This document shows positions 12,436 to 16,226 of a stretch of DNA of 64,000 nt, one piece after another; position 1 is the stretch's first letter, and each line of letters begins with the position of its first letter. Source of the stretch: Stenotrophomonas acidaminiphila (GTDB taxonomy: Bacteria > Pseudomonadota > Gammaproteobacteria > Xanthomonadales > Xanthomonadaceae); the NCBI GenBank assembly GCA_002951995.1, contig CP019797.1:3084501-3148500 (forward strand), written 5' to 3'. The position numbers and the translations under genes are program-made. Below the pieces are notes generated by a model. It was not told where the DNA came from, searched no databases, and worked only from the letters and a program-made list of their open reading frames with translations.

Positions 12436-13508
12436 TCAGGCGGCCGCCTCCAGCCGCGCGCGGCGGCGCACCCGCACCGCCTCGGCCAGGCGCTCGAGCA
12501 CCTGCACGGTGCTGTCCCAGCCGATGCAGCCGTCGGTGATGCTCTGGCCGTAGACCAATGGCTGGCCGTCGACCAGGTCCTGGCGGCCGGCGACCAGGTG
12601 GCTCTCGACCATGACCCCGACCACGCGCGATTCGCCCGCTTCCAGCTGCCCGGCGATGTCCGCGATCACCTGCGGCTGGTTCTCCGGCTTCTTGCTGCTG
12701 TTGGCATGGCTGGCGTCGATCATCAACCGCGCCGGCAGCTGCGCCCTGGCCAGCACCTCGCTGGCCGCCTGCACGCTGGCCGCGTCGAAGTTGGGCAGCT
12801 TGCCGCCGCGCAGGATGACGTGGCAGTCGGGGTTGCCGCGGGTGGCGACGATGGCGGTGCCGCCTTCCTTGGTGACCGACAGGAAATGGTGCGGATGCGA
12901 GGCCGCGCCCACCGCATCGGCGGCGATCTTGACGTCGCCGGTGGTGCCGTTCTTGAAGCCCACCGGGCACGACAGCCCGGAGGCCAGCTCGCGGTGCACC
13001 TGGCTTTCGGTGGTGCGCGCGCCGATCGCGCCCCAGGCCACCAGGTCGGCGATGTACTGCGGCGAGATCACGTCGAGGAACTCCACGCCGGCCGGCAGGC
13101 CCAGCCGGTTGATGTCGCGCAGCAGGCCGCGCGCCACCCGCAGGCCCTTGTTGATGTTGAAGCTGCCGTCCAGGTCCGGGTCGTTGATCAGCCCCTTCCA
13201 GCCGACGGTGGTGCGCGGCTTCTCGAAGTACACGCGCATGACGATTTCGAGTTCGCCGCCAAGCGCGTCGCGCAGCGGGCGCAGGCGCTGGGCGTAGTCC
13301 ATCGCCGCCACCGGGTCGTGGATCGAGCACGGCCCGACCACCACCGCCAGGCGGTCGTCATGGCCATGCAGGATGTGGTGCAGCGCGGCGCGGGCGTCGG
13401 CCACCGTCTGCGAGGCCTGCTCGTCGCAGGGCAGCAGCGAGATCAGGTGCGCCGGCGGGGTCAGCGGATCGAGCCGGCGGATGCGAAGGTCGTCGGTGTG
13501 GGGGGCAT
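12436..13508 (-). CDS. aroG: 3-deoxy-7-phosphoheptulonate (DAHP) synthase, class I; frameshifted at the N-terminus in this assembly
   Basis: First enzyme of the shikimate pathway: condenses phosphoenolpyruvate and erythrose 4-phosphate in the cytoplasm. Class I signatures are clear: VVVGPCSIHDP, MRVYFEKPRTTVGWKG, GFKNGTTGDVKIA, HANSSKKPENQ and ITDGCIGWDST. In the assembly the ATG at 13508 leads out of frame; the family N-terminus (HTDDLRIRRLDPLTPPAHL) is read only if the run of six C after ATG is seven. With that base the protein is 357 residues, normal for AroG. A GTG at 13404 would give an implausibly short 322-residue form. Preceded by an aromatic leader peptide and attenuator (13632-13766). 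Confidence 0.92.
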
Positions 13509-13631: not shown

Positions 13632-13662
13632 AAAAAAGCCGCCAGGTTCGCTGGCGGCTTTT
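13632..13662 (-). terminator. Attenuator terminator upstream of aroG
   Basis: Minus-strand stem AAAAGCCGCCAG (13662-13651) with CTGGCGGCTTTT (13645-13634), loop of five, then six U (13637-13632). It lies 24 bases after the leader-peptide stop and 124 bases before aroG. Its 5-prime arm (13657-13649, CCGCCAGCG) is perfectly complementary to CGCTGGCGG inside the leader peptide coding region (13717-13709), giving an alternative antiterminator. Confidence 0.85.
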
Positions 13663-13685
13663 CGGGAGTGCGTCTGAAAGTTTCT

Positions 13686-13766
13686 TCAGGGTGAGCGCAG
13701 TCCTTCCTCCGCCAGCGGCTTCGGAAAGTAGTACCAGAAGTAAAAGCTGGCGCGGGTTGCGTTCAT
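13686..13766 (-). CDS. aroG leader peptide rich in aromatic residues
   Basis: A 26-residue ORF starting at ATG 13766 and ending at TGA 13686, containing seven aromatic codons in a row (SFYFWYYFP, residues 7-15). All three aromatic amino acids, the end products of the pathway that aroG opens, are represented. Directly upstream of these codons GCGCCAGC (13753-13746) can pair with GCTGGCGG downstream (13716-13709), and the latter can instead pair with the terminator arm. This is the complete 1:2, 2:3, 3:4 arrangement of ribosome-mediated attenuators. The ribosome site before the ATG is weak; too short for automatic gene finders. Function is inferred from this architecture. Confidence 0.82.
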   Translation of the reverse strand: MNATRASFYFWYYFPKPLAEEGLRSP

Positions 13767-13882
13767 GGGCAGCATTGATAACACGGTTTTTTGTGCGATG
13801 CGACAGTTTCAACCGCAACCGCGATTCACCCCCGGGGCGCGATACTTGTGCGTCTTCCCCCGATGCCCGGCGAGGCCCGGCC

Positions 13883-14326
13883 ATGACCACCGACACCCTG
13901 CTGCAGGTCGCCTGCCCGCACTGCAACGCCATCAACCGCCTGCCGGCCGCGCGGCTGGCGCAGTCGCCGGCGTGCGGACGCTGCCACCGGCCGCTGTTCG
14001 CCGCCACCCCGGTGGCGCTCGACGCCGCCGCCTTCGAGGCCCACGCGCAGCGCTCGCAGCTGCCGCTGCTGGTCGACTTCTGGGCGGCCTGGTGCGGCCC
14101 CTGCCGGCAGATGGCACCGGAGTTCGCCAGAGCGGCCGCGCAGCTGGAGCCGCAGGTGCGCCTGGGCAAGCTCGACACCGAGGCCGAACCGGCGCTGGCG
14201 GCGCGCTTCGGTATCCGCAGCATCCCCACGCTGGTGCTGCTGCACGGCGGCCGCGAGCTGGCGCGCCAGTCCGGGGCGATGCCGGCCGGCGCGATCGTGC
14301 AGTGGGTGCGCGCGCAGTTGCGGTGA
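13883..14326 (+). CDS. trxC: Thioredoxin TrxC (thioredoxin 2)
   Basis: 147 residues. An N-terminal zinc ribbon with CPHC (C11, C14) and CGRC (C31, C34) precedes the thioredoxin fold, whose active site WCGPC spans residues 70-74; IRSIPT with the cis-proline follows. The combination defines thioredoxin 2, a cytosolic disulfide reductase that in E. coli is induced by oxidative stress and whose zinc site responds to oxidants. Transcribed divergently from the aroG leader; the 116 bp between the two starts must hold both promoters (GATACT near 13840 is a possible -10 for trxC). Followed by GTAG-type repeats. Confidence 0.93.
   Translation: MTTDTLLQVACPHCNAINRLPAARLAQSPACGRCHRPLFAATPVALDAAAFEAHAQRSQLPLLVDFWAAWCGPCRQMAPEFARAAAQLEPQVRLGKLDTEAEPALAARFGIRSIPTLVLLHGGRELARQSGAMPAGAIVQWVRAQLR

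Positions 14327-14573: not shown

Positions 14574-16226
<1,653 letters not shown>

Follow-up and report, generated by a model that had tools for sequence, protein, structure and literature searches.

The window analysed here, a 64-kb stretch of the Stenotrophomonas acidaminiphila genome, contains aroG on its minus strand (12436–13508). The gene encodes a DAHP synthase of type I (PF00793, E 9e-92), whose best match among solved structures is a Phe-regulated DAHP synthase (1gg1). The initial annotation placed the start of the gene at the ATG at 13508–13506. Relatives use this codon as the start, but here it does not lie in the conserved aroG frame, which is read from 13485, because the C run that follows it differs in length. 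An in-frame start is missing at three of 137 Xanthomonadales loci: the window, L189 on a truncated contig and L203 in an incomplete genome. Relatives have intact copies of the aroG start, and the frame break in the window is most likely due to a homopolymer sequencing error.

Upstream of aroG and on the same strand is a leader ORF of 26 codons, MNATRASFYFWYYFPKPLAEEGLRSP (13766–13686), that runs from an ATG at 13766–13764 to a TGA stop at 13688–13686 and has no Shine–Dalgarno-like motif. Its codons 8–14 (13745–13725) are the candidate control codons F Y F W Y Y F, encoded by TTT TAC TTC TGG TAC TAC TTT. Behind the ORF, an intrinsic terminator is predicted at 13662–13632, with a 12-bp stem (13662–13651/13645–13634), a loop (13650–13646) and a U6 tract (13637–13632). 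The antiterminator would be formed by region 2, CGCTGGCGG (13717–13709), as its 5' strand and region 3 (13657–13649) as its 3' strand; region 3 overlaps the 5' arm of the terminator. A further element, region 1 (GCGCCAGC, 13753–13746), can pair with region 2 over seven of its eight bases. An extended -10 promoter-like element, TGTTATCAA (13783–13775), precedes the leader, with its TG at 13783–13782 and its hexamer TATCAA at 13780–13775. All these features are on the minus strand. Beyond them are a thioredoxin gene on the plus strand (13883–14326) and, further upstream, a groEL-like gene on the minus strand (14574–16217).

Much of this arrangement had been proposed in the initial annotation. 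The minus-strand ORF of 26 codons with seven successive aromatic codons can be read directly from the sequence, and the coordinates of the 12-bp stem and its U6 tract (13662–13632) are borne out. Region 2 is present as well, but it is one base longer than had been quoted, and the nine-base pairing with region 3 that had been claimed is found to be mismatch-free over 13717–13709 and 13657–13649. The 135-nt element folds with -51.9 kcal/mol, as compared to -36.5 ± 3.8 in shuffled sequences (z -4.05; 0/200). When both strands of the 64-kb window were scanned for frames of 12–45 amino acids with at least five aromatics per ten residues, three distinct frames were found (six if nested starts are counted separately). 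Of these three, the aroG leader was the only one with a terminator behind it in the terminator scan.

Conservation and distribution of the aroG leader

The initial annotation had named conservation in relatives as a check, and here the leader is strongly conserved. Our search of 297 genomes of the family identified aroG in 99, and 98 of these have the leader and terminator upstream of the gene. The sole miss is L189, where the contig ends. All 30 best same-genus loci also contain leader and terminator, and the same-genus loci L050 and L054 and the uncultured Stenotrophomonas locus L058 encode an identical leader peptide.

The leader extends beyond this family. We examined 80 named loci out of 591 that were found, and 56 of these have a leader with a terminator (including the doubtful leader L111). 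The remainder consists of 17 loci without a leader and seven with an aromatic ORF but no detected terminator. Examples of leaders are MSAKFYFYFFWHLKPLADREG in Burkholderia (L084), MITVATSYFWYFSYDSSLAAGGSRSI in Bradyrhizobium (L088) and MTCFFFTGYFYFSNSNPKAVE in Rugamonas (L064). The terminator scan revealed no leader with terminator at any of nine enterobacterial and Vibrionaceae loci (L115, L117, L121, L124, L126, L129, L131, L133 and L135), and several Rhodocyclales and Methylotenera loci are also without one. At L078 (Candidatus Burkholderia humilis), the aromatic block is followed by a different tail and the scan detected no terminator; this locus possibly represents a decaying switch.

For the comparisons below, near-identical elements (at least 93% alike) were collapsed from 183 to 85, and the addition of new loci brought the set to 91 leaders: 49 from Xanthomonadales, 13 alphaproteobacterial and 29 beta/other. 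L111 was removed before de-duplication, and L072, L113, L119 and L125 were retained despite an uncertain-looking terminator call. A covariance model built from the alignment of the 49 Xanthomonadales leaders was used to scan 398 Pseudomonadota genomes. In 152 of these genomes at least one match reached E <= 0.01, although many matches were partial and covered the terminator end only. The best 30 full-length matches, from 30 genomes, all lie immediately upstream of aroG, in the same orientation; seven of these are from the window's own family, on which the model was trained. Among 23 other full-length matches listed, 18 are likewise upstream of aroG on the same strand, which brings the total to at least 48 of the 398 genomes. 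The remaining five comprise four without an aromatic leader and L259, where a short FRFFFYF leader precedes the Phe-tRNA synthetase genes pheS/pheT. We take the latter to be the known pheM attenuator. In the window's own genome, the aroG leader locus was the only strong match.

Pairing, spacing and the control codons

RNAalifold recovered the terminator from the Xanthomonadales alignment, but no convincing antiterminator and no helix between regions 1 and 2. As the middle part of the leaders aligns poorly, we used partner-swap tests in its place. The pairing energies of the leaders' own strands were compared with those of 2000 partner permutations across 85 leaders, with no correction for common descent. 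For regions 3 and 4, and also for regions 2 and 3, own partners beat all 2000 permutations (kinship ignored). Covarying stems had been named beforehand as a second check, and both the terminator and the antiterminator pairings do covary in these tests. The proposed pairing of region 3 with region 4 is thus found both as the terminator stem read in the window and as a covarying helix across leaders. In the alignment, 99.3% of the terminator helix cells are paired, and four of the 11 pairs changed on both sides. Within Xanthomonadales alone the swap test for regions 2 and 3 was weak (257/2000 permutations as good), because both strands hardly vary there. Of 91 leaders, only 50 reached p <= 0.05 when the region 2 sequence was shuffled. 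The stem located between regions 2 and 3 covaries in Xanthomonadales (0/2000) but not in the alpha and beta leaders taken together (537/2000).

Region 1 shows a different picture. Here 16 of 2000 permutations were as good as the own partners (Wilcoxon p 0.14, 85 leaders). Comparison with shuffled region 1 sequences gave p < 0.05 in 22% of the 85 leaders, with p 0.095 in the window. Region 1 is strong in some leaders of Burkholderia and Bradyrhizobium. Overall, the partner-swap and shuffling tests do not support the pairing of regions 1 and 2 as a conserved element. The initial annotation described a complete attenuator of four regions. The region 1 pairing that it listed exists in the window but lacks general conservation, and 'complete' in this sense is therefore unsupported for the family.

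When the whole leader was searched, the best complement of region 3 proved in 87 of 91 leaders to begin 5 to 17 nt past the last aromatic codon. This suggests that the antiterminator strand would sit just outside a ribosome stalled on that codon. We modelled such stalling with a 15-nt leading edge, assuming that the RNA as far as region 3 is at folding equilibrium, and scored the antiterminator core, with the region searched from the last aromatic codon on. A score averaged over the whole terminator arm had blurred the step, with 38 of 91 leaders qualifying, and the core score was used instead. With the last aromatic codon in the A site, the modelled antiterminator probability was 0.93; it dropped to 0.42, 0.19 and 0.03 at one, two and three codons further on and to 0 at the stop codon. 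Averaged over the aromatic codons, it exceeded 0.5 in 85 of 91 leaders and was 0.5 or lower in the other six. In the window leader, it was 1.0 for codons 8–14, 0.2 for codon 15 and 0 beyond. A leading edge of 17–18 nt shifts the step one codon earlier, and one of 12–13 nt one codon later.

Substitution patterns separate the aromatic block from the sequence that follows it. Counted over those non-redundant Xanthomonadales leaders that share one length, the block has 132, 268 and 520 differences at codon positions 1, 2 and 3, and the sequence behind it has 523, 514 and 678. Third-position differences are in clear excess within the block but only slightly so in the tail, which suggests that the block evolves as translated codons, whereas the tail, which contains region 2, would be held more as RNA. 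The corresponding counts were too small to tell in the alpha (3/7/9) and beta leaders (11/7/15). Of the 49 Xanthomonadales leaders, 39 have their stop codon 12 codons past the last aromatic one. Two leaders (L161 and L186) have a premature stop in the tail but keep the antiterminator bases; they appear to be natural cases in which peptide and RNA function are separated.

These observations bear on the view that the hairpin is a mere terminator of upstream transcription and that the aromatic ORF arose by chance. Intergenic intrinsic terminators are common, and the groEL-like gene lies on the same strand further upstream. However, the opposite-strand thioredoxin gene separates it from the leader, and the ORF, the spacing and the pairing are all conserved across several proteobacterial groups. 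As this conservation and the codon-position signal in the aromatic block both speak against a chance ORF, we rejected it, and we consider the whole explanation extremely improbable.

The identity of the control codons indicates what the leader may sense. Phe, Tyr and Trp occur together in 48 of 49 Xanthomonadales leaders and in all 13 alphaproteobacterial ones. A Trp codon is found in the block of only 11 of the 29 beta/other leaders and is missing from the other 18. The lack of Trp in these 18 leaders qualifies the proposal that one leader reads all three charged tRNA pools. Phe codons in the leaders are predominantly TTT (94/134 in Xanthomonadales, 13/13 in alpha and 90/121 in beta/other leaders), unlike those of aroG at the same loci (12/262, 5/47 and 39/185, respectively). 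Slow reading of the codon would make the sensor sharper; alternatively, the preference may reflect a need for unstructured RNA. The leader could instead sense mainly one or two aromatics (Phe, perhaps Tyr), with the other aromatic codons tolerated but non-regulatory. The preference for TTT and the frequent lack of Trp in beta/other leaders are consistent with this, as is the fact that the only off-target of the covariance model with an aromatic leader, L259, precedes pheS/pheT. On the other hand, nearly all Xanthomonadales and all alpha leaders keep the three residues, and in the stall model of the window leader region 2 stays free at every aromatic codon position. We regard sensing of mainly one or two aromatics as possible but rather unlikely.

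Taken together, aroG is very likely controlled by a ribosome-stalling transcription attenuator that would sense the charging of the Phe, Tyr and Trp tRNAs, as judged from sequence comparison and modelling. Conservation and covariation agree with the attenuation mechanism as it was originally proposed. Transcription would begin at or beside the leader AUG, and the leader would be translated without a Shine–Dalgarno site. If charged tRNA-Phe, tRNA-Tyr or tRNA-Trp were scarce, the ribosome would halt on one of the seven aromatic codons and leave region 2 just past its leading edge, where it could pair with the emerging region 3. The terminator could therefore not form and aroG would be transcribed. 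With all three tRNAs charged, the ribosome would proceed over region 2 toward the stop codon; region 3 would then pair with region 4, and transcription would end at the U-run near 13632.

Promoter and start of the leader

As to the promoter position, which the initial annotation had also named as a check, the promoter-like element lies upstream of the leader and is conserved in 48 of the 49 non-redundant Xanthomonadales leaders as a TGnTA motif whose hexamer ends 7–10 nt before the start codon; this arrangement is found in 2% of shuffled sequences. Only one of these 49 leaders has a Shine–Dalgarno-like motif, as opposed to 26 of 40 aroG starts. Eight of the 13 alpha leaders have TGAC-N18-21-TA at a similar distance from the start. 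Among 28 beta/other leaders, we found 17 TATAA-like boxes, located 25–47 nt upstream. The leader, its control codons, the predicted terminator, the putative antiterminator strand and the promoter-like element are conserved at the sequence level.

The geometry of the TGnTA element resembles that of leaderless transcripts. A TGnTA box is reported to precede leaderless mRNAs in Bradyrhizobium japonicum (PMC4842269), and trpL of Sinorhizobium meliloti is described as leaderless (PMC7298713, PMC10117765). Given this geometry and these two precedents, we predict that the leader mRNA is leaderless in Xanthomonadales, and probably in Rhizobiales too. Transcription is predicted to start at the leader start codon or within 1–2 nt of it.

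Ten of the 49 non-redundant Xanthomonadales leaders (L148, L160, L176, L179, L180, L187, L188, L190, L202 and L203) have a GTG start despite their leaderless-type promoter geometry. Leaderless mRNAs usually start with ATG.

The likeness to S. meliloti trpL in promoter geometry (PMC7298713, PMC10117765) also accords with a role for the leader product itself, either through nascent-chain arrest by the peptide or through the terminated leader acting in trans as a small RNA, similar to rnTrpL/peTrpL. For arrest, the order of the aromatic residues is informative: it varies by lineage, with FYFWYYF, FYFYFFW, SYFWYFSY and FFFTGYFYF among the blocks. Such variation fits a sequence-specific arrest peptide poorly. 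We consider arrest or action in trans improbable as the explanation of this locus, and prefer attenuation by ribosome stalling.

Known attenuators and control of DAHP synthase

Ribosome-stalling attenuation is known for the trp, phe (pheA, pheST) and his operons. In common with these attenuators, the aroG leader has a short ORF containing a series of control codons and, as predicted, an intrinsic terminator before the gene with a mutually exclusive antiterminator. It differs in having three types of aromatic codons and in preceding an enzyme of the common pathway. Further differences are the region 1:2 pairing, which is not generally conserved, and the leaderless-type start in Xanthomonadales. 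In the ilvGMEDA and thrABC attenuators of E. coli, one leader also senses several amino acids, but these are branched-chain amino acids or Thr/Ile and not aromatic ones.

Rfam 15 returned no family other than three tRNAs at gathering score in the window, and none other than one tRNA in 20 of 135 related loci. The Rfam Phe_leader (RF01859) matched 13687–13629, behind the aromatic codons, with 22.6 bits (E 0.2), below its gathering score of 55. The present aroG leader was not described in the open-licence literature that we searched, although subscription papers may contain an earlier mention.

A closely related system is the uORFC-13-1 motif upstream of the DAHP synthase gene aroF in Acholeplasma, for which attenuation has been proposed (PMC8632094). 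The motif is reported from 24 representatives in Acholeplasma and environmental sequences, with at least one Phe codon (PMC8632094), and shares with the aroG leader a candidate leader ORF and a terminator before a DAHP synthase gene. It differs in that a Tyr/Trp block is not described for it in the available part of that paper, which also cites an earlier attenuation hypothesis for E. coli aroF (PMC8632094). The S. meliloti trpL/rnTrpL system has a leaderless AUG leader ORF in an attenuator, a feature that is only predicted for the aroG leader. Unlike the latter, it is Trp-specific and precedes trpE(G); trans functions have been reported for it (PMC7298713, PMC10117765). Merino's database, according to PMC1173090, contains predicted attenuators for tyrA operons, some of which start with a DAHP synthase gene. 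PMC5343134 covers how TrpR and TyrR control DAHP synthase genes, and the main text of PMC2965389 does not contain the word DAHP. The attenuator is thus of a kind already known, but a widespread member that precedes aroG and reads three amino acids was not found in the open literature that we searched.

aroG is not the sole DAHP synthase gene in this organism, a possibility that was ruled out by the presence of a type II enzyme (PF01474) in the same genome (L245, G000:C1:864519-865823). No short aromatic leader ORF was found within 600 nt upstream of the type II gene. The aroG leader therefore governs one of two DAHP synthases, and the second enzyme limits the share of the pathway that is under its control.

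The shikimate pathway begins with DAHP synthase. In the textbook case, that of E. coli, expression of this enzyme is controlled through repression by TyrR/TrpR. Relatives of Stenotrophomonas/Xanthomonas and Burkholderia, as well as rhizobia, seem to use one RNA switch on DAHP synthase instead, which seemingly reads all three end products at the point where they share a pathway. Tentatively, and as a reading that we hold to be possible but less likely than not, the observations can be read jointly as an old and unnamed family of DAHP synthase attenuators in alpha-, beta- and gammaproteobacterial lineages that combines three tRNA chargings in one leader. The form in Xanthomonadales, and probably in Rhizobiales, would be leaderless, have no fixed region 1 and be switched by the distance from the last aromatic codon to the antiterminator, and its terminated product may act in trans like rnTrpL. 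If this reading is true, the attenuator would fill the place of enteric TyrR/TrpR repression. Elucidation of the aroG leader, which has no Rfam family, would reveal how a single leader integrates several tRNA pools.
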